Assembly: GCA_009760855.2 (NCBI GenBank)
Contig: WPIO01000003.1
Location: 14,483,501-14,547,500 of the forward strand
Reading direction: 5' to 3'
From: Cristatella mucedo
Taxonomy: Eukaryota > Bryozoa > Phylactolaemata > Cristatellidae
DNA: 64,000 nucleotides
Under the pieces are notes generated by a model. That model saw only the letters and a program-made list of their open reading frames with translations. It searched no databases and was not told where the DNA came from. The stretch's first letter is position 1. Each line of letters starts with the position of its first letter. Position numbers and translations under genes: made by a program. Of this stretch, positions 28,490 to 64,000 are shown in pieces.

Positions 28490-28930
28490 AGCAAGAGAAA
28501 ACCTGGTGCGGTGCTGAAATGATTCAGAGCCAGCTGCAGAGCTTTTTATAGCCATATACTGCACATGTGGACTTCGTGATTTCGTGTGGTGGGCGAAGAA
28601 GCAGGGGCAAGCATACTTCTTGTGCTCAAGCATATATCTAAATTTTTATATCAGAGTAGTCAGTGTGGTTACGCAGCACTCAACACTGTAGAAGCAGCAT
28701 CGTTATACTAGAGCTGTCAGCAGCCGAGTCAAGCAGCAATAACACAGACTTTAGCATTGGGATCAGTGTTCCTTGCAACTTGCAATTCAGCTTCTAGAGA
28801 GACCATGCTCAAAAAGACAGGAAATGAATGCTCAAGAAAGTAAAAGCAACAAAGCCCAATGGATTCAGCTTGGCGTTTCCAGAATACAATTAGCTAAGCC
28901 AGGCAGCAGAGTAACACCTAACTTCGACGA
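28490..28930 (-). repeat. Paralogous block, inverted relative to 63560-64000
   Basis: The reverse complement matches the window's last 440 bases along its whole length: 'tttctggaaacgccaagct', 'gagcatggtctctctagaag', 'ttgcaaggaacactgatccc', 'ctctgaa..tttcagcaccg'. Similarity is about 80-85 percent by eye. It lies about 260 bp upstream of the transmembrane exon. Confidence 0.85.
28543..28550 (-). promoter_or_regulatory. TATA-box-like element
   Basis: The minus strand reads 'gctataaaaagctc' about 310 bp upstream of the transmembrane exon. The homologous position in the 63-kb block reads 'gttatgaaaagctc', so the motif is not conserved. Possible alternative promoter only. Confidence 0.2.
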
Positions 28931-28967
28931 CTGAACCTTCAAGTCCCCTGTAGGACTTATGTCACGT

Positions 28968-29012
28968 ATATTAATAATAATAATAATGCACTTGATAAAG
29001 TGGCCTCTCGAA
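28968..29012 (-). mobile_element. LINE 3' tail fragment
   Basis: 'ttaataataataataatgca' then 'cttgataaagtggcctct' is the complement of the family terminus (ATT tail plus right hairpin arm). A second fragment of the left arm in plus orientation lies at 29225-29260 ('aaatgtaaagtgcctagaaa'). Confidence 0.6.
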
Positions 29013-29102
29013 CAATCCCACACAGTACATATGCTCTGAAGCAACACTACTAGCTCATCCTCCACCAACTGATTGAATGCAGGGTTGCCACCACCTTTTA
29101 CA
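29013..29102 (-). other. Possible ectodomain exon of the ITIM-like gene
   Basis: After the minus-strand acceptor 'attgactattcag', a phase-1 frame reads 'GITVKGGGNPAFNQLVEDEL' and continues 'VVLLQSIC'. The right boundary is unknown because a LINE tail begins at once. No family assigned; a juxtamembrane stalk exon is one possibility. Confidence 0.25.
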
Positions 29103-29439
29103 GTGATTCCAACTGAATAGTCAATTTGAAAATACCGAGCGACTGAAGTCTGTCTACAGTGGGACTGTAATCTGTAAGGTTCAGCAATATGCACGTACGA
29201 GCGGAGATTTCATGATCTTGCACAAATGTAAAGTGCCTAGAAAGAGATTAAAATCACGAACAAATATAAACCATGTTGCACAACTTGCTTTCCAGAAATT
29301 CTTAAACTAAGGAAAATCAACTCATTCAAAATGTGGAACCAGGCCTTGAAATTGCCATTATAAAAACTAAAAGGGTAAACAACTCTAGCTGTTTCAAATG
29401 TAAATGATGCACCACTTTGGAATTAACTGTAGACAGGTA

Positions 29440-29670
29440 GCTATTGCATCCAACATATGATCCTCAATTAACTGTGATTTTACCTTTCGCTTGCTATATT
29501 AGTCCCTAAAAATTCTAGCAATCTTCCGGCTGACTACTTGTGTCAGTGATTTGACCAGGAGTCTGCTGCCCTTATGGGTCAGCTAATTATCTGCCATCAA
29601 ACCAGCACCATCTAAATACACGTGTGACTGAAGAACCGTCCATCTCAACTAAATACTCGTGGCTGCATGC
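29440..29670 (-). repeat. Paralogous block, inverted relative to 58240-58480
   Basis: The reverse complement matches: 'ttcttcagtcacacgtgtat', 'agctgacccataagggcagc', 'actcctggtcaaatcac', 'gttaattgagg.tcatatgt'. The order relative to the 28490-28930 block is the same as in the 58-64 kb copy. Confidence 0.8.
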
Positions 29671-29839
29671 TAACTTAAAGACTAAAGCAATTGATTGTGG
29701 ATCACAACTAGGTATATATAATAGCGAGTGTTTTAGCGTTTTGAGAAGGCATTTATCAAGGGGCATCAGTAGTTCGACTTGCGTGTGGTTCTTGTAAGAT
29801 CAGCATAAGCTCCACCCTCAATATCTTGAAAGTTGACCA

Positions 29840-30070
29840 TGCACTATCGGGCACGAGCTGCAGGACACTGAATGCTCTGAGCCACGTTAGCACCTGTCTG
29901 GGTGCAATTGTTGGCAGACGTACTGCTCTGAGAATCGGCATAGGAGCAATTGACCTCGACACAGTATTCAGCATCAGCATGAAAAGGAAGACTCCAAGGA
30001 GTGCCACAGCCATGGGAGCTCAGCCAGAAGTGACGTGATGTGGGCTCTAGGCAGCTGAGACGGGACCTGA
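29840..30070 (-). other. Possible signal-peptide or Cys-rich exon
   Basis: Two overlapping minus frames both look protein-like. From ATG at 30013, one begins 'MAVALLGVFLFMLMLNTVSR', a convincing signal peptide. The other, without ATG, reads 'HADAEYCVEVNCSYADSQSS' with several Cys and NxS/T sites, and has a phase-1 donor candidate 'ACAG|gtgcta'. They cannot both be used. If real, it would be an N-terminal exon of the ITIM-like gene. Confidence 0.3.
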
Positions 30071-30349: not shown

Positions 30350-30353
<4 letters not shown>

Positions 30354-30388
<35 letters not shown>

Positions 30389-30777: not shown

Positions 30778-30817
<40 letters not shown>

Positions 30818-30841
30818 AAACACACACACACAACACACAAA

Positions 30842-32414: not shown

Positions 32415-34260
32415 CATGATAATAATACTAACATATTTGTTATAGCTCCTTCAGAAAACTCGTTTGCTTCTAGGAACTTTAAATTTGGTATAAAAGAAGC
32501 ATAATCGAATGGTTAGTGATAGCATGCTCAATAAAACATCAAACGAGAGCATATGGTTTGGGGTGACACGCACAGGCTCAGCATGCAAATACGGTTAGTA
32601 GCAGCATGCACAGTGTCAGCACGATTTAGCACATTAAGGTCGAATCATATGGGTCCACTAAATGCTGTGATTAATCTAAGCGTTTTTTAGTTTCTTTTTA
32701 AACGTGGTCAAGTCCGTGGATGTCGTGAAACAAATCGGAAGTGAGTGTCATGCTTTAGGAGCATACGAACTAAAGGTACGGTCTCCAAAGAATTTGAGGT
32801 TCGTGTGAGGTATAGGTAAACCATTAGATTCTGAAAAGCTGATGATACGATGATTAGCCTTGTGGGGAAGTAGATCTGATAGGTAGGCTGGAGCCAAAGA
32901 ATAAAGAGGCCTAAAAGTGAGTGACAAATCTTGAAGTCGACGCTTGCTTGACTGGGAGCCAGTGCAGGTCGGCCAGAAATGGTATGATTTAGCAACTGTG
33001 ACGTTCACAACAAACCAGCCTAGCTACAGAGTCTTTCACCAGCTGTAAGCGCCTGCGTGCACCGAACTGTAGACCAGCAAGCAATGAGTTTCAGAAGTCG
33101 AGACAGGATGTCACAAATGCATTGACCAATTTCGATGTAGTATCCTTGTCTTAGCAAGCCAGAATTTTAGCAATGTTATGCAGCTGAAAGCAAGCAGACT
33201 TGACTGTAGAGCTCATGTAGTCGTCAAATGAGTCGTCAAATGAGTCGTCACTTTGGATTATGACATTTAGATTTTGTAAGGATTCAACAGGAGATATGCT
33301 GGTAGAGCCGATTTTGAGCGTTAACATTTCAAATTTAAGAATAACGTTTGTCGTTAACTAATTATTTGGTTTTACTATCATTCAATTTGAGAAAGTTTGC
33401 TGCCATACAATCGTGGATGTCATCGATACATGCATCAAAGGAGTTGAGAGAATTCGACGTACTCGATGGCTGGCAGTAATCAAAGTAAAGGTACAACTGA
33501 AAGTCATCTGCATAGAATTCAAAGCCTAGATTGTGTCTGGTAATCGCATCGGCAAGAGGGAGAGTATAAACCATAAAAACCACAGGACCAAGCATAGAGC
33601 CCTGAGGTCACACCTACTTCAGAGGTTCATCGGATGATCTGGATTCATTCACATCAGCACTCTGGCGTATACCAGTGAGACAGGACGTGAACCATTGCAC
33701 TGCAGTGCCAGTGATGCCCACGAGAAATGAGAGGCGCTCAAGAAGAACTTGATGATCGAATAGTATCAAAAGCTGCCAAAAGATAGAGCAAAATAAGCAG
33801 AGATACTCCTTCTTGCATGACAGGAGATCTATGCATAATAGAAGCAGGGCAGTGGGAATAGGATCTAGAGGACAAGTTGTCTTCTTTGATTGATATACGA
33901 ACTTCAGGCCGAGGTCAATAGCGGCCTCCTTGAATGTAGACATTGGGGTGCTGCATGAAATTGAGGGACAGGAATCCAAGAGGGTGCTGCCACCCTAAGG
34001 ATGAACTCCCTGATCTTGTCTATCTTGTTGGCAAAAAAGCTAAATATTCGATCAGCTAGGTCATCACGAAGATTGCTAGGTAGAGGGCTAACCTGGGAGC
34101 GCTTAAGGAGATGGTTGATCGTCAACATAAGAATTTTTCAAGGATTGTGCATCTGTGATTCAACAATATTTTGATAGAAGCTGGACTTGGTCTTTGCTAG
34201 GATCGATTGGTATGATCTACAGTGGTCCTCGTATGATCTTGTATAGGTTTTTTAAGCTTG
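32415..34260 (-). mobile_element. Long degenerate L2-like LINE, minus strand
   Basis: The best view of ORF2 in the window apart from the C-terminus. On the minus strand: 'LPSNLRDDLADRIFSFFANK' and 'IDKIREFI' (34080-34000); 'YQSKKTTCPLDPIPTALLLL' (33900-33830); RT fingers 'LDHQVLLERLSFLVGITG'-type sequence; 'GPVVFMVYTLPLADAITRHN' then catalytic 'FYADDFQLYLYF' (33600-33480); 'DIHDCMAANFLKLNDSKTK' (33420-33365); then the C-terminal region (33010-32700) and 3' UTR to about 32415. Several frameshifts; 5' end (endonuclease) missing. The PQGS-type context and 3' hairpin place it near the L2/CR1 group. Confidence 0.85.
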
Positions 34261-36929: not shown

Positions 36930-37014
36930 TTCGTACCTCAGTATAGACGTCCCATCTACACCGTAGAACGTCTGGTACTCTTTCGGCTCGAGTAAACCAT
37001 TCTTTGCTACCAAT

Positions 37015-37243
37015 TGTTATGTTACAGCGTCTCCGGCTGCAGCAGCGCTAGTGGAGTCTCACGGAGACACGAAGACACGAGCGGGCGAACGTGAGCGATG
37101 AACGAGACTCTCGTCGTTATTTCCCCAGCGGGTACATATGGGACCTAGGGGCTGACTCACCACAGATAAGGGAGTGCATCTGTGGTGAGCCACTGTGATG
37201 GGCCACACGCTCACATCAAAGGCTGCACCGAGCCAATTGCCCA
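37015..37243 (-). repeat. LTR (upstream copy)
   Basis: TG..CA termini; adjoins the tRNA-iMet-like primer site at 36997-37012. It has a 9-base insertion relative to the other LTR ('ggacctagg' region). Confidence 0.8.
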
Positions 37244-42928: not shown

Positions 42929-42989
42929 AATTTATGACTGTAAAATGCTTCTTGTCTTACGTCACGACTCGGCACCACAGACACCACTG

Positions 42990-47274: not shown

Positions 47275-47638
47275 ATGTCACCAGCGGACATTTGCATCCT
47301 AAGCTTACACTTGAGCTTACTGCTGATAAATAACTATGCAGCAGCAGCTGATGTAGTCGTCTACGACAAGCCTTCTGGAGTGCCGCTCGTGTTCACTTGC
47401 CGAAGTGACCCTACTCAAGGATCCGTGACCAATGCAATGTGGACGTTTGGAACCGCAGCAGTGGCTGTCGGTGTTCAAGTGAACTGTACTTCAAAGTATT
47501 GTATAAACAGCACGTCCTTATACGACCTAGTTATTGCAAATGTGTCACGGGCCGACACTGGACAATACGGATGTACACTCGTTTACAGTGGCAGCAATCC
47601 ACCAACAGTCGTCAGAACATTGACGTTGACGGTGAGAG
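47275..47638 (+). CDS. Ig gene exon 1: signal peptide and Ig1
   Basis: 364 nt, ends in phase 1 at 'gtgagag|gtaagt', a near-perfect donor. Ig landmarks: Cys42, Trp56, 'SRADTGQYGC' with Asp94, Gly96, Tyr98, Cys100. Two extra Cys (71, 76) could form a second disulfide. The sheet ends 'VVRTLTLTVR'. It looks V-like or I-set-like. Confidence 0.8.
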
Positions 47639-50600
47639 GTAAGTTGGCTATATATGGAGGACGAGAATGAATGTACATTGTAAGCTAACAACTGAATCGC
47701 TTAGTTGCGAAATTTCATCAACAATACAACCATGAAAGACTTATTTGGCTTGTAAAAAGGGTCCAATATTTTTAATACCAATTTTTTCAAAACCATATTA
47801 TTTCTTTAGCTCAGCTCAAGATTTGAGTCTGGTATATTGTTTCATCTGTTAAGTATTGCTGGAATTGGTAGATCCGACGTTAGTGTGATGGTTCTGCATT
47901 AAAAAACAACGTTTTATAGCATAGTTGGCATTATTAATTCCATAGATAGTTGAAATTATGAATTTCTCATTCAAACCCTGGAATTATTAGTCATTGCAGT
48001 TGTTCTTGCCGTCGAATTAGTGAGTCAGGGTATCAGCCACTTTCTAGCCTCAATGTGATTTTTATGAAAAAGCAAGTTCTGAGATTCCAACAAGCACGGT
48101 AATTGGTTCATTATGTAGCCTTTTTCATGCATCGACATTTAATGCAGTCTCCTGCCCGATTGCAACAAGCAGCAAGTTGGTCGTCAGTAGCTAGAAAGTA
48201 AGAAATGTTAGATCTGTGTCATTTATATAGCATCAAAATAGCTTCAAAGGCTATCACCACAGCCTGCAATGGGCATTACAGGATCGCTCGCGGCTAATCT
48301 AGAATCACGACGTGTATCTTGAAGAGAAAGAACATTACTCCTAGCTACTTGCTACCATTCATTTTTATTTAAGTGGAACAAAATCAGCATCGATCCCGCA
48401 ATAAAAATCTCAGAAATGCTTAGAAAGCGAAATGTCTTATTTCGGTAGCAGATGATTCCCTTCAGTACTGCGTATAAAAAATACTAGCTGATTCAACAGT
48501 CTCTTTTGTATAGTGACAAAAAAGCCTTACGGATATCACCATCGCTTGCAGCAGCAAAAATGGATCGCCTACTGCAGGAGTCGAACCCACAACCTGGGAA
48601 TAGAGGTCGAGGGTTGGAAAGGTTTGGCTCTATTTGTCAAGGTAGTGTGATGTTAGTGTGATGTTGTGATGTTTTTTCATTTCAAGAAGCTGTTTCTAGG
48701 TTATAAACTAAAAACTGTACACAGTGCTAAGTCTAACTGCTACACCTTAATGATACAACCAACATGCCAGCTGCGTGATTTAAATTATTCTAGCTTTAGA
48801 CAATACAAGTTGTGCCATTATTGTCTTATCTACACTTGTACAAAAACAATTATGACAGCCATTATTGTAGGCAGTCTTTTGGCTTTGGCAATTCTTCAGC
48901 TATGCACGCTACACTTTTTCTCAATAATGATAGCCTCCACGAAACTGTAAAGCCATTTTCAAAGTTTTTTATTCCGTTGCATATTGTTTTATTAAATAGG
49001 CCAAATAAAAAGTTGCAAAGCAGTACTGTATTTTTATGGTACTATTATATCGGCTTCTTCATGTAGTTGCACGTGTCGTAAAAAGACTAGCAAGCTCTTG
49101 CACACATCTATTAATCCAGAAACAGACCCTCGCACTGATGTAACCTGCAAGGAGCTATTCTTTTTTTAAATGATTGGAAAACTGGTTTGCTATGCTTCCA
49201 CTTCGCTTATTGACACTGAAATCAACAAGGTTTCTTAATGGAATGTCATGTTTGATTTGTGACCAATGTTTTGACTGATCAAGTAACAATCGACAATGAC
49301 GCTGACAGAATGCATATTTGTGTGCTGTTGCTGCCTGTCATATTTTGAAAGATCAGTAAGCTAGCTTGGCTTGATAAATTTCGTCACATACAAAAAAGCG
49401 TAACCCGCCACAGTGTGGGTGGATGTACAAAGAATGCTTGCATTCCCATCATTTTGATTTTTAAGTATCTATCAGCCGATCCTAGCCGATTCTTCTCCCA
49501 GTCTTTCATTCCTATATATTGTCTTTTATAAGTTCGAATGGGACAAAGTAGAAAAGCTTGCATTCGGTCCTTGGGCTCCAGGTTTAACCCACGAAAACAA
49601 TAGCAGCAGTCTCTTCTTTCTCGGAAATCGTGTTGACAAACGGTATGTTCCTTAGGTAGTCTCGAGCCCTACTGCAGCAGCAGCCTTATTTATGAGTTTT
49701 AATCTTGTTTGTGCTTGTCTCAATATCTCAATCTTTAAATGCCAGATCGTCATGTTATCGTCTTTTCTCAACTTTCAAAGTTTGGATCGGCGATTTTAGA
49801 TTTGCCAGGATTGCCTTCAATATCACAGTCTGCCCTGGATATGATGGAAGGTCTCATATCCATGGTAACATGCCAGTCTCTAGGTGGTTACCCTGCTCCG
49901 AATATCACGTGGTACAAAGATGGCTCTCCGCAGCAATCCAACGTATCTGTGACGTCCAACAGCAGTGGAGATGTAATTGGCATCATCAGCTTCGTCCCAA
50001 GTTATTGGGATGACGGAGCGTCACTCACATGTGTTGCCAACAATATTCTTGGCAGTAACAATTCTACTGCTTTTCTCAATGTCAGTTGTAAGTAGATGTG
50101 TTTGCTGGAGTTGCTAACGATGAGTAACCCATGCATTTATAGTATCGTGAAAGGACTACAGTTTTGTTGATGCTGCCAGCTCGGCAATAGTTGTTCCCAG
50201 CATCTGTCATTCCCTAATTTATATTTGATTCTTGTGGCAATAGCTATTCTAATCTTCATTTTGGAAGACGTGACAGGCTGATACTTCAAATCTGGCGGTT
50301 AGATTCAGTCAAAGATAAAAATTTGCTATATTTGTAATCCTGCTTTACATGAGGTTGCTGCGGGTAACGCTTTTTTACCTTTTACTAAAGTATTTTGCAT
50401 TGTTTGTTAAGCTGTTATATAATTCCTGCAAAGGTTCACCGAAAAACGGCCTGGTTACATATTAGGAGAGCTGCTGATGTATGTAAACACTTTCAGATGG
50501 TTCTAGGAATGTCGTACTAACACCATCTGCAGCTTCAATTGTGGAAGGTGGAGAAATTATGCTGACGTGCTCGGCTCAGGGAAAGCCGCTACCCTCCATA

Positions 50601-53600
50601 TCATGGACAACGCCTGACACAAGTAAGCAGCTACGTTCTTCCTTGCTCGAATCCATAATCTAACATTCACACGGATCACGAAATTCGCATACTTGGCATT
50701 TTAAAAGAAATACAAGCATACTTATTTCTCATTATATTTTCTTGGTTTGTATGGATTGTCTGGTGCATACTTACGAATGCAAATGCTGTGCATGTTGTTC
50801 CTAACCAATCGCCAGGATTTCTTTGCAGCATATTTCGAGTGCCTAGAACGAGATTAATTTCACTTTGGATGGTATACAGATATAACTGTAATTGTTAGTA
50901 TTGATTAAGCTGATGGCTGATTTTTACCAGTAGTTTTTGCAAATGTAGGAGGGAGCAACATCCAGTCGAACAACCCTATAGGAGGAGTATCGTACTTGTA
51001 TGTGGGTCACATACAGAGGCAAGCAGCTGGCATATATATCTGCACCACTTCGAACTTTGTCAATCAACTGTTCAACATGAGCGTTTCTAGCAACATCACC
51101 TTGGGTGTTAAGTGTAAGCCATTTTGTAAGCCTTTGTGGTTTTCTTCTTTCAGGTCATTGCTGAGTAGGTTTTTTCCATAATTACTTAAATATTTGATTC
51201 GCTGCTTGCGATCTTGCAAGTGTGAGCTGTTGCCGAGTAGGCAGTAACAATCAACTACTTTTTTGTATTCTGTTTATTTTTATAGATATACCAAGCAAGC
51301 CGATCGTATACCCAAGCTCGGTTAACATTTCGTCTGGAGATAACATTAGTCTGACATGCAACGTCAGCGACCCAGGTAAAAAATATGCATTTTATTCTAC
51401 CACATATGTCGTCTGCAGCCCATGTAATGCACTATGGCATTGCGAAAAGCTTTTTGTGATCCTTGTGCTTACTTTATTTGGCAGGTTGTGGTAGACCATC
51501 AATCTAGCCTTTTCATTTTAGTGATGTCTGGTCAGTGACAGTATTTGTTGGTAGAAATCATTTCGGCTTGCTTAAATAATGGCACTGCAGCTGAATTCGA
51601 CCATTCATTTCTCGCATCTACTTTAGTTTCTGATACCTTCACTTAAAAGTAAAGCTGATTGAACAGAATCTCTTGTTTTAGCAGGTAAACAGCCTTTGCA
51701 GCTTTCATTGGTTCGCGGCAGGCAATAGTGAGTAGCCTGCCAAAGTACTCGATCCCCTGACCAAGGTCGTGATGTTTGTGAACTGCCTCCCCTCTACTAG
51801 GACTCAGGTCTCTCTGTCCCTGCAAATAAGTACATAAGCTTTAAAAGCCGACAGCAAAGTATGTTGTTCTGTATCGTTGTAACTGCCTCATGACCACTTC
51901 TCTCCGACCTGTGCTGGTTCCGCATCAAGCTTCAGATATTGTCATGCTACTAATTTTTTGGCTCTTTTACAAATTTTCTCACATATCATAACATAGCATA
52001 ACATGACAAGTCGCGTAGAATAACATACTGATAGTTTTTTGCTGTTGTTTTTTTCTACTGAATCCTCTCATTATGATTATTTACCTATGCTTCAGACCAA
52101 GCCTAAATCTTGTTTAGACCTTACATTTCTACGCAGCTAAATCTGTTGCTTTTCACATCTGGTTTCTCCTATTGTGATCATTTATCGGTAGAGAAGACCA
52201 AGCCCAAATTTGCGTAGACCCTACATTTTTATGCAACTAAGTCATAGACCTGCTGACTGCTATCACTAGTATCGCTAATATCAGTGACTCGTATTAGCCA
52301 TGGCTTTTAGATGCAACGAATCACTGCTATACAGTGCACCTACATGCGAAATCGACTGAAAAGTGCTTCAATTTCGAGATCACGTAATAGTACATGATAT
52401 TTCATAGGTATCCACATTATTTAGCACTGTTGCGCCCAGGTGTTCTTGTGAAAAATGAACTGCCAAGACCTAGACTAATACCGCTCCTTTGTAGTCCATT
52501 GCATGAGAATGCACTCTCTGTATAGGATGATGCCTTGTGGATACACTCAAATTATAGCGTACTTTAGTTTCTTCAGTTAAGATTGTTGAAGCCTGAATTG
52601 CTGTGGTTGCAGTACCTCAACACACCCTTGATTTGCTCACATTTAAATTGAAGTTTAAAGCTCCCCTGTGCCTTACGGCATGTGCTCTGTCATTGTAAAT
52701 TGTCGTTGGTATGCTTAGGCATGCTGCAATTGTGCCGTTATCTTATTGGTAATCAGTCTATGTGCATAATTTCCCGCCTTTATTGAATGCCAAGAAAGCG
52801 ATTGCGTGCTCTCAGGGAGCTGTACAACCTCTGTACTTTCATTATTGTAAAGAGTTGTGGTTGAATTAGTGCACACTATTATGAACCGGGAACAGTGCCG
52901 TTGTGAGCCAGGCATTGGAGATATTGGTGTCGTTTGGCCTCAGCCCTGAAGCCACTGGCGCCCTGATTTATCCCAGTTGCCTAAGTACTGCATAGATTTT
53001 TAATTTAATTTAAAAAAACATTTTCAAATGTAGTTTAAAATGCGTCCAGTTTTCCAGAGCATTGTTAATGTTTTATTTATTTAAAAAAATAATTACAAGA
53101 CCGATGAGATCAAAGCAGCTCATGCGTCTTGGGCAAGGAAAATGTGAGAAGTAAGTCGCCATCGCGTTTAACTGCACTCAGCTTAAGCAAGTTCTTTCCA
53201 AGAAGCTCACATTTGCGTAAACCGACCTTTCGGCTACCGAAAATTCTGTCGAATTTGAAAATGCCCACAGGAAACAGCCGAAGCACAAAGAGCAGGAAGG
53301 GCAGGATTAGGAAGAAGAAACCAATGGCAACGGCAACATTCAGGATTAATTCCAGCTTGCTGACGAGTCTGTAATCACTCTGGTCAATATTTATTGGGAG
53401 ACAGGAGTCGGAGAGATTGACACAGAAGAAGCAAAATTTCCTTTAAACATGAAACAATTTAGATTTATTCAAAAACGTATAACTTACACTGCTCGAAAAT
53501 AATTTCCTTTTTGTTGATGTATACATGATGCCTGATGGTATCGACCATCTTTTCTCTTTTAGGAAATCCTGCTGCTCTGTATAAGTGGACTCAGAATGGC

Positions 53601-53739
53601 CTGACAATTCGCACTGGTTTGTCAACGGGTTCACTGCTAATGCCATTTGTTAACCTGACCTCTAGTGGGGCATACGTCTGCACAGCTTACAACAGTGTAG
53701 GGCCGGCAGCATCAGAAATGTGTAACTTATCCGTTTTCG
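47275..53739 (+). CDS. Multi-Ig-domain cell-surface or secreted protein, 5' part
   Basis: Join 47275-47638, about 49746-50087, 50497-50622, 50931-51113, 51286-51375, 53563-53739. ATG at 47275 is the first after an in-frame TAG (47254). About 427 residues, with every junction in phase 1. The first 25 residues form a signal peptide ('ICILSLHLSLLLI', cleavage near AAA). Four Ig-like domains follow: one in exon 1, one in exon 2, one split over exons 3-4, one split over exons 5-6. Each has the Cys..Trp..Tyr-x-Cys pattern or a close variant, and NxS/T sites are numerous. No stop, membrane helix or kinase domain follows in the window, so the 3' end is missing or undetected. It is an adhesion- or receptor-type protein; the precise family is unknown. 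An antisense gene overlaps its 3' part. Confidence 0.75.
48215..48350 (-). mobile_element. SINE remnant within repeat D copy 1
   Basis: 'tagcttcaaaggctatcacc', 'cctgcaatgggcattacagg', a decayed B-box complement 'tagaatcacgacgtg'. The equivalent segment in copy 2 is at 54170-54300. Confidence 0.55.
48485..48612 (-). mobile_element. tRNA-derived SINE, head missing
   Basis: 'agctgattcaacagtctctt', 'atatcaccatcgcttgcagc', B box complement 'gagtcgaacccacaacctgg'. The tRNA head beyond the B box is lost at the repeat boundary, whereas copy 2 has it. Confidence 0.7.
48613..49745. other. Rest of Ig intron 1
   Basis: AT-rich, short frames only, nothing recognised. Confidence 0.4.
49746..50087 (+). 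CDS. Ig gene exon 2: Ig2
   Basis: Donor 'gtcagtt|gtaagt'. Three candidate acceptors (exon start 49746, 49800 or 49809) are all phase 1 and in frame, so the exact start is undecided. The domain is clear: 'SMVTCQSLGGYPAPNITWYK', then 'DDGASLTCVANNILGSNNST', a C2/I-set pattern with Cys, Trp and the second Cys. Several NxS/T sites. Confidence 0.8.
50497..50622 (+). CDS. Ig gene exon 3: first half of Ig3
   Basis: Acceptor 'aacactttcag', donor 'acacaa|gtaagc', 126 nt, phase 1 at both ends. Reads 'ASIVEGGEIMLTCSAQGKPL' then 'PSISWTT': A to C strands with Cys and Trp. Too short for standard ORF finding, but splice sites and phase are exact. Confidence 0.75.
50931..51113 (+). CDS. Ig gene exon 4: second half of Ig3
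   Basis: Acceptor 'gatttttaccag', donor 'aagt|gtaagc', 183 nt, phase 1 at both ends. Reads 'YLYVGHIQRQAAGIYICTTS' followed by 'FNMSVSSNITLGVK': the A-G-x-Y-x-C of strand F and the G strand. Confidence 0.75.
51286..51375 (+). CDS. Ig gene exon 5: first half of Ig4
   Basis: Acceptor 'tgtttatttttatag', donor 'cccag|gtaaaa', 90 nt, phase 1 at both ends. Reads 'KPIVYPSSVNISSGDNISLT' then 'CNVSDP'. Confidence 0.75.
51650..51830 (-). mobile_element. tRNA-derived SINE in Ig intron 5
   Basis: 'agctgattgaacagaatctc' (3' end), 'ggcaatagtgagtagcctgc', decayed B box complement 'actcgatcccctgacc'. Confidence 0.6.
51880..52850 (+). mobile_element. Degenerate LINE in Ig intron 5
   Basis: 'catgaccacttctctccgac' matches the 'PLLADLHWL' coding segment. 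52610-52680 matches the ORF end ('ttgatttgctcacatttaaa'), and 52790-52845 the terminal hairpin and tail. The central part is replaced by unrelated sequence. Confidence 0.55.
53072..53081 (-). terminator. Poly(A) signal of the antisense gene
   Basis: Two overlapping AATAAA hexamers on the minus strand (53081-53076 and 53077-53072), starting 29 nt after the stop codon of the antisense terminal exon. Ideal placement for cleavage near 53055. Confidence 0.6.
53110..53379 (-). CDS. Antisense gene terminal exon with membrane helix
   Basis: Acceptor after a long pyrimidine-rich tract ending 'attgaccag'. 270 nt, phase 0, stop TGA at 53112-53110. The frame is open from 53442, but with no ATG until deep inside, which is why start-based ORF calling misses it. 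89 residues. Confidence 0.55.
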   Translation of the reverse strand, partial: SDYRLVSKLELILNVAVAIGFFFLILPFLLFVLRLFPVGIFKFDRIFGSRKVGLRKCELLGKNLLKLSAVKRDGDLLLTFSLPKTHELL

Positions 53740-55160: not shown

Positions 55161-58100
55161 GACTTATTGAACAATCTAGTCAGTAGCTGAGCTGCTTGGC
55201 CGCGGTTGGGTTGGGTCATGCGAGGACTGTGCTGAAGGATATCGATCTATGTGCAATAGTTATATCGTCGACCATGGGTCAATTTTGATCTCTCAATGTG
55301 CCCTGTATAGCAGTGCATGGTCACAGTAGCGGCTTGACTAAGATGTTGCTGCATTGCAGCATCCCAGCGAAGTGTTGGTGCTGCTGTCGCTTTGCTAATG
55401 TCTTGCTAGTGGTCGCCTGCAGCCTTCCCACTTGGCTTACACTACCAGCCCACAAAACGACTATGGGCTTCAGTCGCGACTGCAGCTTCAACCTAAAAAC
55501 CCGGATTTGCATGATGGATAGCACATGCCAGCCACGGCCAGTTTACTCATAGAGCTCACAAGAGCAGCTTGCGGTGGGTTGAGCCAGGAGGAGGAAGCCT
55601 TGGGTACTCGGTGTGTCGTACAGCTCATTAGAATGGCTGCCGAGTTATCTCAGTGGGTCTGCTCTCTCTGAGCACAGTATCATTGGCTGCAGAGGGGGTT
55701 GGTTGTTCTCGGCTCATTGCTTAGCCTTTACTCGTCTTGTCCTCTGATCCTTGCTTGACTCTCAGCTTCCCTCTGTGGAGCCAGAGCGCCTCGATTACAG
55801 CATGTGAGACACGTGAAGGACGAGTTCATTTCTTAACAATGGTGGTGCGAAGGCAACTATGATCTTGCAATCGTCATTACTATTAGTCAGTTCTAAGCAT
55901 CTCACTCTCACCGAGTGGAGGCTGAAGTGTATTAGTTATGCTACGGCACTCACAATTGTTGGAAGTGGTGTTGGCCAAGTTTTCCAAAGTATGTTCCCTT
56001 GTTCCAAATAAAAAACAATGCATATGGTGGACAATCCGACCTACTAGTGTCCAATGCTACTCTTACATGGTTAATCACCATGATTATTAGGGTTAGCACC
56101 TGAAGCATGTGGCTAGATGGCTATGTTGCATACAATGTTTGTGGTTGCACATTTGTACAAAAGGCTCTTCTTTAGTGAAAGTAAGTTACTCATTTTCAGA
56201 CTAAATCTACTATTACTATACTTTCGACTAAATCTATTGTTTGAATTCTACTACAATCTCTGAGTTTGCTTCGGCTAATTGTTGCATTACGCTAAGGCGG
56301 ACGCTTCGCTTTTCGTTAATTGTTGGTATTGCTTCTCTTTCAGAGAGCTGTAAAGCATCTAAATAGAAATTAAGGAGTGCTATCTTGCACATAAGACTTA
56401 TCGTTATCATTATGATTATTATCAAGGGATTTTCGTGGCCGTTTTACGGCGACAGAGGAATTTGCTTCCCAGTTTCATTTCAGACAACTTTTTATCTTTT
56501 GCTGGTGTGTGATTACACTTTTTCTCTCCATGTGAAGGTTTTTATCTCTATGACCTGCATATTTGCCTTGAAAGTTGTTTGTTCTACTACATTTTAATAG
56601 TTTATTGGCTGATCCAGTCATGTTGCTCATGGAGGTATTTTCACGGTATTTGATATTATTTGTTAATTAGCATCTATGACTTAAATACTGACATGCTATG
56701 CGAATGCACTTGTCCGTTTTGGTGGCACAGCATTGCATGGGGATCAGGCGTGTAGCCAGCTGCTCACGATATCTTCCTATTTACACTGCCCTAGGCAGGC
56801 TTCATTCCACCATCATTTCTCAGCAGAAACACTTTAGGTCGTTTCATTCGATCTCCTGTGCACTTGGCTGGCAAAGCATGGCTGTGAGATTTTTGAGCTT
56901 CAGGTGCTCCAGTGTTCAAGATGTGCATGGTTGCATGTGTAGACAAACTATTGGCTCTAGCAAGCCTTGACCTCGTGCCTTGGCATCGGTGTTGACAAGT
57001 ACTTAGTGATAAACTCAGAGCATTCACCTGTGCTGCTCTTGCCGAGCTTGCTGCATGCTCAGTTGTATGCTCGTTTTGCTGTGAAATGAGTAGCGTTCGT
57101 TAAGCATGTGCCCTTCGTAGTCGTTGCTTCACCCATGCAGTGTAAGCAAGATGCTTGAGCATGTCCACCAAGTAGGCATGGTCCAGGCCAGAGCGTTTGA
57201 AGCATGTTTGTCAAGTCAATTAGAACGTAGTGTCCAGATATGGCCAGTGGAAAGGAGGGCTAGCAAGTGATGGCTTCACTGGGTCGACCTGATGGCTTGG
57301 GTGGGGCAGCTTAGCCACCGGTTGATGCCCTTTCACCTACCTATGATTTCGAAGAATGAACTGCCTGTGTGGCATTTTCCATTACAGAGTGATTAAGCAG
57401 CACTCATTGCTATCTAGTTTATGCTGTAAAGTAAATTTATTAACTCAACTGATATTTCACACATCGGAATGAAATTTGAAATGTGAGTTCAGCTCTGCTT
57501 TTTCTACCCTACTTTTAATATTTTTTGATTTTGGTATTATAAATTTGGCTGTAAATTTAGGCACCAACAAATCCTGGAAATAAAGCTGTATTAAAGTCAC
57601 AAGCATTCACTTCAAAAAGCTTCAAGCATCTTTAGCGATATACCAAGGTTTGAAAAGTTGCGATACTAGTCGCATTTGATGCAGTGATCGGTATATTTTT
57701 TATTTGTAGATTTGTTGCTTCCAGTTTACCTTTGGGTTAGACGTGGTTGGTTAAACCAATTTTTTTCACGTGGAAGTCGTCAGAACTTCCGATTCTACTT
57801 CTAACATATTTGTCTTTTGAAAGGTGCCATAGACACGTATTTAATTGTCGGAAATTGTTATAGGTATTTTCTTGGCATTCCCCCTTAACACACCCCCTGT
57901 TGGTGTGTCTGAACTTTCAGCTAGCTTCTTTGGCCAGTGCCAGCTAAAGCCAGCTGATTTCTCTGCTCACTGGCCAAGTATTTCTTCTTAATAATATTAT
58001 TATTATAACCTACGGTAATGTTGGGGATAGATTACTGCTGCATTTCAGTAGCCAATGTATGCAAGTTAAGCTGAGGCCCTAAAATTCGTGCTATGCATTC

Positions 58101-58239
58101 AATTTTAAGTAGCAGGTACTTGACAGCTTGGCACTTGGTTCTTTAACTTTACCAGTGACTATCGTCCTGTGGTCACTGTCACAGCCAGCATTTTTATGCT
58201 GTTAGGTGCTCTAGAACATCTGGCTCATATATTGTCAAG
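55161..58239. other. No firm gene; LINE tail near 56.4 kb
   Basis: Contains the putative 5' flank of the antisense gene (55161-55560, moderately GC-rich). A decayed LINE terminal hairpin with ATT tail lies at 56345-56420 in plus orientation. Frames of 78-90 codons at 56.7-57.0 kb overlap on both strands and show nothing recognisable. Confidence 0.35.
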
Positions 58240-58480
58240 CTCGTATATTGCCATTTAGTTGAGGTGGAATGTTCTTCAGTCACACGTGTATTTAGATGAC
58301 ACTGGCTTGATAGCAGATTATTAGCTGACCCATAAGGGCAGCGTACTCCTGGTCAAATCACCGATACAAGTAGTCAGTGTGAAGACTGCTAGATTCTTTA
58401 GGGACTATTATAGCAGCGAAAGGTAAAATCATAGTTAATTGAGGGTCATATGTTGAATGCAATAGCTACCTGCATGCGAC
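58240..58480 (+). repeat. Paralogous block, inverted relative to 29440-29670
   Basis: Starts near 'ttagttgaggtggaatgttc' and ends at 'gaatgcaatagctacctgc'. About 88 percent identical by eye to the reverse complement of 29440-29670. Confidence 0.8.
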
Positions 58481-59672
58481 ACTCATTTACGTAGAATTAC
58501 GGACGGTAAAATATTAACTTGACTGCAATGACTGGTTTGGTGAAAGGCTCTGTTGAGAACACTCATCACCTGATGCTTTGGCCTGCTGAAAACAATCTAT
58601 CGAGCATGTCGTTAGCCCAGATTCGTTAGCATCAATCACTCGGGTCACCAGTTATCTGACAATAGGGTTGGTTGGTTGGTTTTCCCCACTTTGTCATCGA
58701 TTCCTTGACCATTCTAAACCCTGTCAAGCCTATTGCTGGCCATGCTCAAAACAGCATGCTGCAAGCCCTTGATGATTGATGAGATAAGATATGTCACTGT
58801 AGTTACGTTCTTAATAAAAGATATTTGGTTCATCCAGTTAATCTTACTTCACAATGGTCTTATGGTGCTACGAAATTATAGCCTTCAAAATGGTGACTAT
58901 GACAGAAGCTATAAAAAGCCTTAGACGCTACCAAATCAGGCTCGCTCATATCACATATTTTCGCTCGGGTTAAGATAACCAATGTGTTCATATGCACGGT
59001 CAGTTAACAACATGACTAACTCATGTGAATCCCGTATTTTTGTGAATTATGCCGGCTATAGTTTTAAGCTCATACATTTTGAGGTTATCTCTTAATCCAC
59101 AGCATTTTCAAAGTTTCTAATGCAGCAATATTTATCACGTTGTTTGGCTATAAATGCTACACCATACCCTGCCTCAGCTGACTGGTGCATTACTGTATTA
59201 CGTGTACGTGTGAGTACGTGTAAATAGATATAATTAATTTGCATAGCTCCCTAAGCAAACATAGTCTCTATTCAGGCATTTCACGTATGCCACGGGTCTC
59301 GAGCCCACGACCTCGGTCATTAACAACATTCACCTTGACCTTGGTCGAGGCGAGCACTTTAATCACTGGGCCAAACTCGGCGGCCTTACAAGGCTGCAAT
59401 GAGTTTCAAGCATTCTCCGTGGGATATTCAGCAAGAAATTTAAGACCCTGTTCAGCTACTTCTAGTGCATTTTTATTCGCATTGATGTTGCTCCTTCCTT
59501 AGCACATTTTAGTTAAGGCTGTTTTCCACTCCTACATAGCGATCTCATAAAACTTACAAAAGTTGACTGTGTGTGAGATTAAGTTTCAAGGATTTCCATG
59601 ATAAGAGGCACATCGTCCCCTTCAGACATGTTCACTCCAGATAATTTTGAAGCTACTCAGGCAACAGCAGCA
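58481..59672. other. No gene recognised; SINE-like segment inside
   Basis: 59270-59390 is a minus-strand SINE-like segment ('ctcgagcccacgacctcggt' is a B box complement) similar to 15396-15555. A minus AATAAA lies at 59477-59472, a possible signal for the candidate gene end upstream. Confidence 0.35.
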
Positions 59673-60943
59673 TCACCAGACACACTGGGCCAATTCAAAG
59701 CTGTCTTGGTTACCACGCCATCTGTTGGCGCCATATGTCTTTTGGTTGGTACTGCCACCAAAACTTCGTACTGTCGCCAGTGGTAGAGAAAGAACAGAGA
59801 TCAAGCTGCAGCCACCCAAGGATAAGTGAGATTAGATTAGCCCAAGGAATAGCAACATGATAGGAAATTACCAATCAGCAAACAAAAACTGCTGTCAACA
59901 TTATGCATCGGCATGCAACCATGAAGGTCCAGGCAGGAAAGTAATGCTAGAAAATTGCATTTGAAAAACGTTGTCAGCCAAACTATCAGTTGTTGCTATG
60001 CACGATATTATTCTCATTTCTGAAAGAATTTTGACGATTAAAATTATAGATTGTATTTAAATGTATTGTCCTTTGTTTAAGTTCTGAAGTGATTTGTTTT
60101 TTCCTTAGGTTAGGACATAATCATATTAATTAAATAATGCTAATTCGCTAGAATAGTCTCACCTCACTGCAGCTGCTTTATATTCTTTACACTGTCTCCA
60201 CAATGCCTTTCCTGATTGCTGAAGATGGTGTACCCTCTGATCAAAAAACTTGCTTAAGAAGCATAGGGGTCGCTTAAGAAATGGCTACCATCAATTGCCT
60301 TAGGGTTTAATACACTTACAAATATGGCCAGACTAAGTTAAATACCTGGTGCTACCAGCCATTTACTTTTGCGGCTCCGACTTTCAAGGGCCGTGCTAGT
60401 GCTTATTTATTTATCGCCTTGGTTCTGGGTTTTGGCCCTCTGTCCCCTGCTTTACACTAACTCCAACCTTGCAAATGGAGTCTCATCGAACCACGAGCGT
60501 GCGCCTTGATCACCATTACCTTGGAATCTTTCGAGCGACTCTGATGCTATGCTCTGGCATAGCTTCAGCAAGCTGTGATATGTGCTTTTATAGTTATCCG
60601 AACATCTGACTAGCCTAATGAAATAGACTCGCACTTGCAATGATTTAAGGTTGCATACCATTATGGCCAAATTTGTTATAGCTAGATTTATTGCAAGGCA
60701 ACTCGATTCAGTTGCTATATGGGGTTATCATTAGTTATTCCATTTTCTGACCCTTTGCGACCTAAGGCGAAACAAGTGAGGCGTAGATGATTTGAGTATC
60801 TTTACGACCTGACGAATATGCTGCATTAAGATCTGTCTGAGCAATTTTAAATTTCTTATGAAAGAATTCTACATTTATTTGTAATTTTATTTCTACTTCC
60901 TTATGGAGCAAGGTGGTGAAGAAACTAATTGCTCTAACAATGG
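59673..60943 (-). CDS. Candidate three-exon 3' gene end, unassigned
   Basis: Three minus-strand exons with GT..AG borders and matching phase 1: 60943-60809, 60609-60520, 59770-59673. Lengths 135, 90 and 98 nt, stop TGA at 59675-59673. The predicted peptide (about 107 residues) includes 'FFTTLLHKEVEIKLQINVEF', 'STYHSLLKLCQSIASESLER' and 'NQKTYGANRWRGNQDSFELA'. The first exon is amphipathic and helix-like. Problem: the last exon region is open in three frames, including one on the plus strand, so coding is not unique. No family recognised. Confidence 0.3.
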
Positions 60944-61062
60944 CTTGGAGTTGAAGCCCATTTTTGTACGTACAAATTGGCACACTATTCGGCCTGTTCA
61001 TCAGTAGTTAACAAACTCCTTTTCTCTTTTAAGCACACTGTTATTGTTCTATGCTATTTTAG

Positions 61063-61390
61063 TGCAGTAATAATAATGGCACACTTGATAACTTGTCCTC
61101 AGAGAACTTAATCTCTTTCTCGGCGCTTTACATTTGCTACAAATGAAACACGATCAAATGGTTAGTGGTAGCATACTCGATAAGCAACAAGAATAACATA
61201 GTTAGGGATGGTATGCACAAGGATCAGTATGCAAGTGTGGTTAGTGGCAGCATGCACAGTGTCCACGCACATAAGCACATAAAGGACGAATCACAGGTAC
61301 CCACTAAATGCTGTCACAAGTAGATGCGTTTTTACTTTTTTTAATGTGGTCAAGTCAGGGGATATCGTGACGCTTGTCGGGAGTGAGTTC
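61063..61390 (-). mobile_element. L2-like LINE 3' end, minus strand
   Basis: An (AAT)n tail at 61063, hairpin 61090-61140, then 'aatggttagtggtagcatac', 'agtgtggttagtggcagcat', 'aaaggacgaatcacagg' and the very end of the ORF. Structure matches 5312-6030 but truncated after about 330 bp. Confidence 0.85.
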
Positions 61391-61792
61391 AATCAGTCAG
61401 CCTATCACTGAGCAAAAACGCTATCCAACTTTGCAAACTTGTGATCTTATACTCCTTGTACCAGACTTTAGATTGAACAGCAGGGAACTTATTTTTCGGC
61501 ATCATCAGAATTATCAAAGTTTAGATTGAATATTTAATGAACTTTTAGCAATAATTGGCCATTAATTTTCAACTTTGAGAAACTGTAAACTGGATGTTCA
61601 TCAACATTGTTGAAGTAAATGTACAAAACACAGCTGCCATCTTGAATTTAATTCATGAGTCGTCATCCATAGTATTTTTTCAGTCCCCTATCTAGCTGAA
61701 CGAATATCAATCGTTTAGGTTTGGACCACTAAGAACGGGTTTTAGCAATCAAGGGGCGACTGTCCGAAAAGTTTGTGGACTGGTTTCCATAG
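61391..61792. other. No gene recognised
   Basis: AT-rich, short frames, no repeat match. Confidence 0.35.
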
Positions 61793-61903
61793 ATCATCAG
61801 CAGCTGGGTGCAAGGCAGCTAGCTCTGCATAAACCATTTCAGCTGTTTAGTCCTTAAGTGGCCAGGTCCTTTTAAGACCTCAAGTATGCAATTATGCAAT
61901 TCC
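61793..61903. repeat. Direct repeat E, copy 1
   Basis: About 110 bp ('atcatcagcagctgggtgca', 'agtccttaagtggccaggtc') repeated with few changes at 62516-62630. Confidence 0.9.
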
Positions 61904-62465
61904 ATTATGATGAGGCTTTACATAGCCTACCATTCACGGCTGTTACTGGGATCCTGTAGGACCCAGTATATGATAGATTGCGTTCTGTGAGTAACGCTTT
62001 CAACTTGCTACTCATAGGATTTGATTGTATTTCTTATGCTGGTTTACTTGCTATCATTATCGGGTCGACTTTGTTTGCAATTATTGCCAGTTGAGTCATG
62101 CCTTGTACCAGAACTGCACCTCTGCACCGAAACCAAATAAAGAACTTACAGTGGCTGCCAAAAAAGCAAACAGCGGTGAAACTCGACTTTGTCTAAGCGC
62201 GAGATCAGCGGCTCACGAGTATATTCATGGTCATCGCTACGTTTCTAAGAAGCCTTACTCTTGCTCATGCGAAATAGCAGTCTACGGCTACTTTGACCAC
62301 AGTTCATCCTCGTTTTTTCTTTTTCTTTTTGGTACCATAAAATAGAGAATACCCTCGAACAAATTGGGAGCAATCTATTAGGATGTCATCGTTTCTCTGC
62401 AGCAGTGAGCAAAATCGTCAAATGGCGTCGCACGCTTTTCTTTTAGCCAGTGCAATATTATTGCC

Positions 62466-62665
62466 CAGTTATGCAATTCCATTGATAGAATCTTGTAGCT
62501 GCACAGCTAAGTAGATCATCAGCAGCTGGGTGCAAGCCAGCTAGCTCTGCATAAACCATTTAAGCTGTTTAGTCCTTAAGTGGCCAGGTCCTTTTAAGAC
62601 CTCAAGTAAAGCCTAATTATGCAATTCCATTGATAGAATCTTGTAGCGGCACAGCTAAGTAGGAA
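62466..62665. repeat. Direct repeat E copy 2 with flanking 50-bp repeats
   Basis: 62516-62630 copies 61793-61903. It is bracketed by two near-identical copies of a 50-base segment starting 'ttatgcaattccattgatag' (62466-62516 and 62616-62665). Confidence 0.9.
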
Positions 62666-63559
62666 TTGTGGAAGATCGTGCGATCTCTGTGGAATTTCTT
62701 CAACTCACTCTCCTCAAGGTCCACATATCTATAGTGCATACAAGGACTTCATACATCTTTCTGGAGTTTCTCATATAGTCAGCAGTCCGAAACCTACTGA
62801 AAGGCTCTCCTTTTTAAATAACAAACGATTTTTGCATCGTATATTCATTATCATGTCGGATATTCTTATTCTCACCAATGACTTATCTCAACACAGTCAG
62901 AATCTTGTGGCATTTTATGTTTTTAGACATCTGTACTTCTTATTTTTAAAGCTTCGACAAAGTTCACAGAATTCTGGCCTTAATTTTGGCCTTACCGCCC
63001 GTCTTTGAATTGTCTCAAATTTTTTCAAATTAAAATGTTCATGTGCACTGGCTTGCAGCAAAGCTCATTGGAATAGGTATCGAAGTGTGCAATTCGTCTC
63101 TTGTGGGTAGGCAGCCAATATCTAGCTGATTTGCTTATGAATAGCTTATGGATACATTATTTAACTCTTATGACCCAGTCAGGTTGACGTTTAGATGTTA
63201 TCCTTACCCGATTGTACCCTTGATCCTCCTGGACCAAAGGCCGAAAAGAAATCTCTTCCAGTAAAGTAGCACCAAGCTTGGTATAAGTAATCATGACTTA
63301 GTGCACCTTCTATGCTGACCCTGGCAGAGCAGCAATGCTGGCACTGCACGGCATGTGAATAATTATGTTAGGTACATCATTACAGCTAATCTCAACAGTG
63401 TATTAAGAGATCATTTAGATAATTTGGGGCATAGAGCTTGGTTGCAGCATCTGCCTCGTCCTAACGGTTTGGTGAGGCTGGTGCAGATTATTACGCCTGA
63501 CTTTTGGTGTATGTCTCACTCAGAAAGGTTAGTATTTTAACGGAGGATACCAGACTGTG
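62666..63559. other. No firm gene
   Basis: A 61-codon plus frame at 63355-63540 ('YIITANLNSVLRDHLDNLGH') is unassigned. It sits at the place that corresponds, across the inverted paralogous blocks, to the possible ectodomain exon near 29050, but the peptides do not align convincingly. Confidence 0.25.
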
Positions 63560-64000
63560 CTAAACGTATTGGACATTACTCTGTTGCCTGTCTTAGCTCA
63601 CTGTTTTCTGGAAACGCCAAGCTGGATCCATTGTGCTATGTCGTTTTTACTTTTCTTGAGCATTAATGTCCTGTATTTTTGAGCATGGTCTCTCTAGAAG
63701 CTTACTTGCAAGTTGCAAGGAACACTGATCCCAATGTTAAAGTCTGTGTTATTGCTGCTTGGCTCGGCTGCTGACCGTTCTAGCACTAAAGATGCCACTT
63801 CCACTGTGTTGCCCACTGTGTAACCACATTGTCTAATCTTGTATAAAAAGTTAGATACTTGCTTTAACACAAGAAGTACTCTTGCCCCTGCTTCCTCGCC
63901 CAACACACAAAAGCACGGTCTATATGTGAGACATAAGGTTATGAAAAGCTCTGCAACTGGCTCTGAAACTCTTCAGCACCGCACCAGGATTTCTCTTGCC
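63560..64000 (+). repeat. Paralogous block, inverted relative to 28490-28930
   Basis: Runs to the window edge. If collinearity continues, a transmembrane exon homologous to that at 28233 would lie about 260 bp beyond the window, on the plus strand. Confidence 0.85.

Follow-up and report, generated by a model that had tools for sequence, protein, structure and literature searches.

Mirrored blocks in a Cristatella mucedo window as probable intron pieces of a locally amplified, paired-receptor-like gene family

The window, a 64,000-nucleotide stretch of the Cristatella mucedo genome, contains a predicted Ig gene on the plus strand (gene B), a receptor pseudogene on the minus strand (copy A), and a candidate tail exon of gene g1 (Table 1). 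Rfam and tRNA scans of the window gave 0 matches each. Pattern scans gave 0 matches in viral contigs and 0 in genome contigs, and of 16 stretches fitting the pattern when the LINE protein was compared with viral contigs, 0 were confirmed.

Gene B is predicted to be the Ig gene of the window, with a normal FN3b–TM intron of ∼5 kb. It is collinear with its sibling gene D over 14645121–14666982 and at block 1. The Ig5, FN3a, and FN3b exons, looked for in gene B by alignment to its siblings, are absent. Because introns up to the TM exon are of phase 1 in our model, a shorter B receptor could stay in frame without Ig5 and FN3.

Copy A, judged by its alignment and translation, is a truncated receptor pseudogene, the homology of which to gene D ends at 30004. 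The ectodomain is gone, as is ∼3.4 kb of the FN3b–TM intron, and the TM exon is broken. Bases 1–341 and 337–519 of its spacer map to 14708260–14708600 and 14711980–14712162 and, likewise, to 14629037–14629377 and 14632763–14632945.

Table 1. Predicted features of the window (positions within the 64,000 nucleotides)
Feature	Positions	Strand	Basis or remark
Candidate tail exon T1 (...EDNYDHLRIKQSG...) of gene g1	1486..1610	+	g1 starts left of the window
Tail exon C, copy A, terminal RVLYEVIV and stop	26749..26888	-	ITIM-like VLYEVI; translation; coordinates counted
Tail exon B, copy A, HDYTYASVGV...	27143..27271	-	translation; coordinates counted
Tail exon A, copy A, PPYASYVRDQLYANPNF...	27593..27729	-	translation; coordinates counted
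TM exon, copy A	28058..28233	-	defective: 5-base deletion, in-frame stop ahead of donor
Block 1, copy A, intron upstream of TM exon of the receptor pseudogene	28491..28914	-	self-BLAST, genome matches
Short spacer, copy A, pieces of 337 and 183 bp	28915..29433	-	pieces separated by ∼3.38 kb in E and m14628
Block 2, copy A, 5′ part of this FN3b–TM intron, downstream of FN3b exon remnant	29434..29654	-	self-BLAST, gene alignment
FN3b exon remnant, copy A, final ∼80 bp	29924..30004	-	exon end placed by alignment to gene D
Gene B exon 1, signal peptide and Ig1	47275..47638	+	
Gene B Ig2 exon	49800..50087	+	
Gene B Ig3 exon, first half	50497..50622	+	
Gene B Ig3 exon, second half (Ig3b)	50949..51113	+	downstream acceptor used
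Gene B Ig4 exon, first half	51286..51375	+	
Gene B Ig4 exon, second half	53563..53739	+	
Gene B stretch without the siblings' Ig5 and FN3 exons	57210..58252	+	alignment of D with B; 57858–58094 matches gene D
Block 2, copy B, intron before TM exon	58253..58472	+	self-BLAST, gene alignment
Block 1, copy B, intron before predicted TM exon	63576..63999	+	cut by window edge; self-BLAST, genome matches

The sequence-only reading of the window had described two blocks that recur in reverse complement, in collinear order but with a spacer of 5 kb in one copy and of 0.5 kb in the other. Self-BLAST of the window recovered both minus-strand matches, with 84.98% identity over 426 columns for block 1 and 89.14% over 221 columns for block 2. 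The order is as described, the block coordinates given earlier are accurate to ∼16 bases, and the spacers are indeed unequal, with inner distances of 5,103 and 519 bp. The matches score 471 bits (block 1) and 288 bits (block 2), as compared with a top score of 33.7 in five first-order Markov controls. The K2P divergence is 0.15 for block 1, copy B of which is truncated by the window edge at 63999, and 0.11 for block 2. A Fisher test finds no significant difference between their mismatch counts (p = 0.31), so a single duplication age is possible for both blocks.

Both blocks are parts of the intron that separates the second FN3 exon (FN3b) from the TM exon of a receptor gene. In the 572-Mb genome, block 1 has at least 9 copies (at least 10 matching pieces), all listed on contig C332 at 14.47–14.71 Mb or on the small contig C174; block 2 has at least about 11 copies (at least 12 matching pieces), which among the matches listed fall only in the same two places. 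All these copy numbers are lower bounds. The block copies found thus do not show the genome-wide spread of an ordinary repeat, and, as far as these searches reach, a dispersed repeat or transposable element was ruled out because they lie only on the two cluster contigs. Two separate transposable elements in chance order were likewise rejected as the source of the mirrored blocks.

That the blocks are ordinary interspersed elements which inserted twice, in mirrored order by chance, would fit a window rich in repeats, which for this reason yields 74 self-match pairs at E ≤ 1e-5 (the mirrored blocks being 2 of the 74), many of them stemming from LINE-like 3′ ends. However, besides the confinement of the copies to one cluster, block 1 keeps a constant place relative to the TM exon wherever this can be read, and entire genes are collinear around the blocks, which leaves this explanation with a very small probability.

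We favor, with a probability of about 0.7, the reading that the blocks stem from a single intron, two stretches of which persist in two genes of a locally amplified, paired-receptor-like family. Receptor genes would have been amplified locally, and copies A and B would each have kept both intron pieces, copy B retaining the intron while losing the Ig5 and FN3 exons. The inverted duplication of a receptor 3′ region proposed earlier is borne out, though not as a lone pair, A and B being two among several copies of alternating orientation. An insertion in copy B as the origin of the 5-kb spacer was ruled out because the siblings D and E have spacers of ∼4 kb; by the same comparison copy A is the deleted copy, and the spacer difference between A and B comes mainly from a deletion in this minus-strand copy.

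A TM exon just past position 64000, completing gene B, is strongly predicted because block 1 sits just upstream of the TM exon in all 7 other copies (5 on C332 and 2 on C174). The TM exons aligned from C332 share one acceptor and one donor in 6 of 6 cases. The ITIM-like tail that had been expected for the plus-strand gene beyond the window is, by contrast, unlikely. In the stretch searched, the ITIM-like exons turned up with no genes other than those of the minus class, and from 2.5 kb past the right edge of the window onward the sequence is collinear with the 3′ regions of C and D, both plus-strand genes, so gene B probably lacks such a tail.

The receptor genes form a cluster on C332 (14.47–14.71 Mb) and C174, in which members alternate in orientation, mostly as tail-to-tail pairs, with ∼56–60 kb per unit. 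The predicted product of a full member starts with a signal peptide and five Ig domains, which are followed by an FN3 domain, a TM helix, and the cytoplasmic tail. In predicted E, Pfam finds Ig_3 (1.1e-47) in 5 stretches and fn3 at 1.6e-5 (25.5 bits, with a cut-off of 25). A genome search with the Ig2 exon gave 8 matches, 7 of them on C332 or C174 and the remaining one elsewhere (32%, 28.9 bits). The predicted reading frames are continuous in D and E, and in C as far as its short tail. One extra base occurs in E and g1 just upstream of the chosen Ig3b acceptor, and the Ig3b exon of F has the length of that of g1. A frameshift in E and g1 was dropped as an explanation, since their indels sit just upstream of the second AG, the acceptor; this downstream acceptor is a choice rather than proof, and with the upstream acceptor both frames break.

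Three tail classes can be distinguished. The long-tail class with an ITIM-like end comprises E, F (as far as read, Ig4b, Ig5, and FN3 lying outside the sequence examined), and the broken or truncated A and m14628. The tails of E, F, and pseudogene A carry VLYEVI at their end, an ITIM by the usual consensus. Tail exons A–C are present in E and were not found after D. C and G have a short tail via a common 1-base deletion, the ectodomain of G having been checked in part. To g1 (without Ig1 in the part examined), D, and B we assign a candidate tail that carries a single YxxL motif. A fragment at 14567–14575 kb is, like m14628, a further broken or truncated member.

This candidate tail is encoded by T1, matches to which are 3 only, in g1, B, and D, and it carries one YDHL motif. 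By codon position, T1 differs at 4, 5, and 1 sites between D and B, at 5, 7, and 2 between D and g1, and at 1, 2, and 1 between B and g1. As there is no excess of third-position changes, the coding status of T1 is weak. T1 is the sole frame kept from the set in which it occurred; a separate set of many small conserved frames was uninformative. The TM segments of the plus class contain no charged residue.

Members predicted to have highly similar ectodomains but different TM segments and tails are present in two pairs, D/E and g1/F. D and E share a tract over Ig2–Ig4 with 99.147% identity over 6,681 columns and sharp edges, flanked by sequence of 93.3% and 89.2% identity on one side and of 80.3% and 91.9% on the other. 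The differences within it are uneven, with 26 of 57 in one of 14 bins. In the exons, Ig2–Ig4 shows 1 mismatch in 846, whereas the TM exon shows 32 mismatches plus 9 gap columns of 190. A second tract, between g1 and F, is ∼98% identical, with 39 substitutions in ten 200-column bins from C174:53691; the five bins before it hold 43, 26, 39, 31, and 12 substitutions and the four full bins after it 15, 27, 17, and 17. Here, the Ig2 exon is without difference, and the TM classes differ.

We infer that gene conversion made these identity tracts; it would keep the ligand-side parts of different classes alike. The D/E and g1/F tracts could instead be recent duplications or assembly errors. That the D/E tract is an artefact of assembly, or arose very recently by inverted duplication, in an otherwise plain array, would be compatible with the use of one assembly, with C174 possibly being an alternative haplotype or an unplaced array part, and with the tract end at 14658067, where the D–B and D–E alignments both break. 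We nevertheless consider it improbable, given the second tract, which g1 of C332 shares with F of C174, and the flanks of the D/E tract, still alignable at 93% and 80–92% identity.

Ectodomains and the E–F tails look constrained at the codon level. Ectodomain pN/pS is 0.17–0.47 in each of the 8 non-independent pairs computed. The set comprised exons Ig1 to FN3b of B, C, D, E, g1, and F, leaving out G, the 14567–14575 kb fragment, m14628, and A; Ig3b of g1 was skipped (its length differs from that of D by 3) and that of F was not entered. Between the tails of E and F, 6 codon differences are synonymous and 5 are non-synonymous. Comparisons of A with E and of A with F give 3 synonymous and 10 non-synonymous differences each, which fits drift of A; from m14628, only tail exon A entered the tail comparison.

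The cluster may also be an adhesion-type Ig/FN3 family shaped by local duplication and by birth and death, with tails that differ by decay or exon loss and no paired signaling. Consistent with this are the broken or truncated A, m14628, and 14567–14575 kb fragment, the lack of Ig5 and FN3 in B, the uncertain tail of the plus class, and an ectodomain whose closest likeness among solved structures is to the Ig domains of DSCAM, Robo, and contactin (best matches DSCAM at 1.2e-34, Robo 2, and titin). However, the apparent constraint and the contrast between TM and Ig2–Ig4 exons in D/E, similar in g1/F, speak against it, and we regard it as rather unlikely. Despite the likeness in ectodomain sequence, the cluster receptors have fewer domains than DSCAM, and they differ from DSCAM, Robo, and contactin-type receptors in that their tails are short and bear tyrosine motifs and that their genes were amplified locally and recently.

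The favored reading of a paired-receptor-like family would place one ligand before both an inhibitory and a non-inhibitory partner. A near-identical outside part joined to different inside tails, as predicted here for a small invertebrate gene cluster, is familiar above all from the paired immune receptors of vertebrates. Pairs of an inhibitory and an activating receptor whose ectodomains are homogenized by conversion are known chiefly from vertebrates, where they have been connected with the exploitation of inhibitory receptors by pathogens; KIR and LILR are examples with gene conversion, and many vertebrate activating partners have a charged TM residue. The cluster resembles these systems in its clustered genes, near-identical ligand-side domains, differing TM segments and tails, and tracts over ectodomain exons, but it differs in its five Ig domains plus FN3, in a mitochondrial code that we read as an invertebrate one, and in lacking a charged TM residue, and no ITAM was seen by eye. 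Homogenization of paired receptors by gene conversion is also described for CEACAM1 and the ITAM-bearing CEACAMs (PMC2832619) and for Siglec-11/16 (PMC5701461).

It is conceivable, though we put it forward only tentatively, that the cluster is a paired-receptor locus evolved separately in an invertebrate, probably a protostome to judge from the mitochondrial code, with convergent five-Ig–FN3 genes on opposite strands and inhibitory (ITIM), single-YxxL, and short-tail forms, conversion across the inverted array having repeatedly moved copies of the ligand-side Ig2–Ig4 exons from one class to another. If true, an invertebrate locus of paired-receptor design would represent an independent evolution of that logic. 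Signaling by the cluster receptors, and a role in immunity or allorecognition, would follow the same analogy. In this way, two non-coding blocks that mirror each other can expose a receptor cluster that is missed by reading a single window.

Two invertebrate systems invite comparison. The oyster CgIgIT and CgIgIT2 are inhibitory IgSF receptors in a protostome, compared here by description only; the available part of PMC11999971 makes no mention of a paired cluster. For Botryllus schlosseri, PMC12065747 describes the fester co-receptors (FcoR) in the fuhc locus as type I receptors that bear Ig domains, are encoded in a cluster, and have a tail with an ITIM, a hemITAM, or a single YxxI/L/V motif; according to the same paper, such motifs also occur in Hydractinia alr genes. 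Hydractinia Alr proteins are characterized by Ig-like folds of the Alr type and belong to the allorecognition complex. The mitochondrial code, as we read it, speaks against an ascidian and against a cnidarian. Like FcoR as described there, the cluster is invertebrate and Ig-bearing, with clustered genes and tyrosine-motif tails. Whereas FcoR in that paper has a V-type Ig, a sushi, and two C2-type Ig domains, predicted E has no Pfam match to sushi at E ≤ 0.01 and instead shows five Ig and one FN3 stretch.

Comparison of the window with itself recovered the two inverted matches proposed in the sequence-only reading: block 1 pairs 28491-28914 with 63576-63999, and block 2 pairs 29434-29654 with 58253-58472. 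Their bit scores (471 and 288, respectively) far exceed the best of five Markov controls (33.7), and the mismatch rates of the two blocks do not differ significantly. In the 572-Mb genome, where the window occupies 14483501-14547500 of contig C332, block 1 is found as 10 matching pieces representing nine copies (one is split), seven within 14.476-14.708 Mb of C332 and two on the 178-kb contig C174. Block 2 is found as 12 pieces (about 11 copies), eight copies on C332 and three on C174, one of the latter in two pieces. Both counts are lower bounds, very common words being skipped in the search; within these bounds, a check for many copies genome-wide returned matches on C332 and C174 only. Judged from C332 14448001-14730500 (except 14547501-14550000) and small parts of C174 (the block 1, block 2, and Ig2 loci), the mirrored blocks mark a cluster of related receptor genes of paired-receptor type, which may work as paired receptors.

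The family design consists of five Ig domains, an FN3 domain, a transmembrane (TM) exon, and a tail. We modeled plus-strand gene D with an unbroken frame and phase 1 for every intron from Ig1 to TM. The predicted product of minus-strand gene E matches Pfam Ig_3 in five stretches (1.1e-47) and fn3 (1.6e-5). In D, ∼270 bp separate the second FN3 exon from the start of block 2, and ∼260 bp separate the end of block 1 from the TM exon; therefore, both blocks lie in one intron.

Exons of the receptor genes (C332 unless stated)
Feature	Position	Strand	Remark
Gene D Ig1	14647058-14647421	+	
Gene D Ig2	14652807-14653094	+	
Gene D Ig3	14653504-14653629 and 14653956-14654120	+	
Gene D Ig4	14654278-14654367 and 14656549-14656725	+	
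Gene D Ig5	14659585-14659869	+	
Gene D FN3	14661330-14661494 and 14663216-14663419	+	
Gene D TM	14668612-14668801	+	
Gene D candidate tail exon T1	14673389-14673513	+	
Gene B T1	14553446-14553570	+	match to T1
Gene C TM	14614044-14614232		1-base deletion
Gene G TM	C174, locus L006, near 1045-1259		1-base deletion

The order on C332 is g1 (+), A (-), B (+), a fragment (-), C (+), m14628 (-), D (+), and E (-), with every plus gene opposite a minus copy, tail to tail. Ig1 lies at 14530.8 kb in B, 14590.7 kb in C, and 14647.1 kb in D. C174 carries genes F and G and one fragment, whose order and relative orientation are as expected for a flipped piece of such an array. C174 (best identities 86-95%) may represent an alternative haplotype or a further stretch of array belonging close to where C332 ends (14766910).

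The members differ in their tails. In the ITIM class (tail exons A-C, with VLYEVI at the tail end of E, F, and A), E is intact by prediction, A and m14628 are broken or truncated, and F shows an open frame over the parts read (Ig2 to the first half of Ig4, TM, and tails). The second class (g1, B, and D) shares T1, which has three genome matches, all within these genes, and splice sites in 3/3; because its substitutions show no preference for third codon positions, the odds that T1 is a true exon are about even. In C and G alike, the TM exon has lost 1 base, so that the frame ends 16 residues past the TM tyrosine; this shared deletion would turn them into short-tailed receptors.

Copy B, the Ig gene of the window, has an open frame over Ig1-Ig4. 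Collinearity with D extends over window 44502-61906 and again from ∼62.5 kb through block 1; Ig5 and both FN3 exons are absent from B, with two gaps between 57210 and 58252 in this comparison. The blocks are 5.1 kb apart in B, whereas D and E have them ∼4.0 and ∼3.9 kb apart, respectively. Block 1 of B and its neighborhood are nearest to D (91.4%) and C (91.1%) over 1.5 kb. A TM exon adjoins block 1 in g1, C, D, E, m14628, F, and G (7/7 other copies; damaged in A), and the predicted TM exon of B would start within 14547501-14550000, beyond which B is again collinear with C and D. Translated searches of C332 14463501-14723500 placed ITIM tail exons at three sites only, all on the minus strand (14510-14511, 14626, and 14705-14706 kb); F on C174 also has them. 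Since the tail exons of E lie within 2.4 kb of its TM exon, a hidden ITIM tail of B in 14547501-14550000 is possible. The inverted blocks are as the sequence-only reading described and its wider interpretation is partly supported, but the ITIM tail that it predicted for the plus-strand gene is unlikely.

Directly upstream of B, window 44268-46754 forms a long imperfect inverted repeat (arms jointly 0.8-1.1 kb, 79-86%), with which the upstream region of D (14645121-14646887) is collinear. Two introns of B share a direct repeat (47943-48609 and 53885-54560; 91%, 676 columns), part of which also matches near 16163, 19352, 24345, and 37886.

Copy A (-) is reduced to a ∼80-bp remnant of its second FN3 exon, the two blocks (block 2, then block 1), a TM exon, and three exons of the tail. 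Relative to E and m14628, it carries a ∼3.38-kb deletion at spacer position 337-341, where a LINE-like 3' end sits. Five bases are deleted from its TM exon, which also has a stop ahead of the donor, and an Ig profile built from B gave no minus-strand match below E = 1 within the window. Compared with either E or F, the tail of A shows 3 synonymous and 10 non-synonymous codon differences, versus 6 and 5 between E and F. We take copy A for a pseudogene. LINE-like 3' ends recur at window 5312-6014, 25014-25743, 32416-33317, 41408-42307, and 61068-61390; a fragment of a reverse transcriptase (RVT_1, 3e-7) lies at 42545-42931 (-). An open frame of 222 residues (36348-37016, -) has no Pfam match at E ≤ 0.1.

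Between the facing genes D and E, a tract of 6,681 columns spanning Ig2-Ig4 reaches 99.147% identity, compared with 93.3% and 89.2% to one side of it and 80.3% and 91.9% to the other. Of the 57 differences within the tract, 26 sit in a single bin of 14. Exon differences are 7/364 in Ig1, then 0/288, 0/126, 0/165, 0/90, and 1/177 through Ig2-Ig4, followed by 7/285 in Ig5, 6/165 and 2/204 in FN3, and, among the 190 columns of TM, 32 differences and another 9 columns with gaps. A second tract joins g1 and F: starting at C174:53691, ten bins of 200 columns each carry 0, 2, 4, 8, 6, 1, 9, 3, 4, and 2 substitutions, with 43, 26, 39, 31, and 12 in the five bins ahead and 15, 27, 17, and 17 in the four full bins past it. 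Both tracts take in introns, and protein selection alone therefore does not explain them. Ectodomain pN/pS (0.17-0.47 over eight pairs) supports the prediction of working genes.

In its design, the family is similar to paired receptors of vertebrates that gene conversion homogenizes, namely CEACAM (PMC2832619) and Siglec-11/16 (PMC5701461), and the nearest invertebrate systems found are the Botryllus FcoRs (PMC12065747) and the oyster IgIT receptors (PMC11999971). Among the open-access papers listed, titles and abstract starts mentioned no protostome paired receptors with gene conversion.

In the mitochondrial genome of the organism, TGA is read inside the COX1 frame. At several COX1 sites ATA stands for what is presumably methionine, and at several AGA or AGG for what we take to be serine. 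Read in this way, COX1 argues against a sponge, a cnidarian, an echinoderm, or an ascidian and fits the invertebrate mitochondrial code (table 5).
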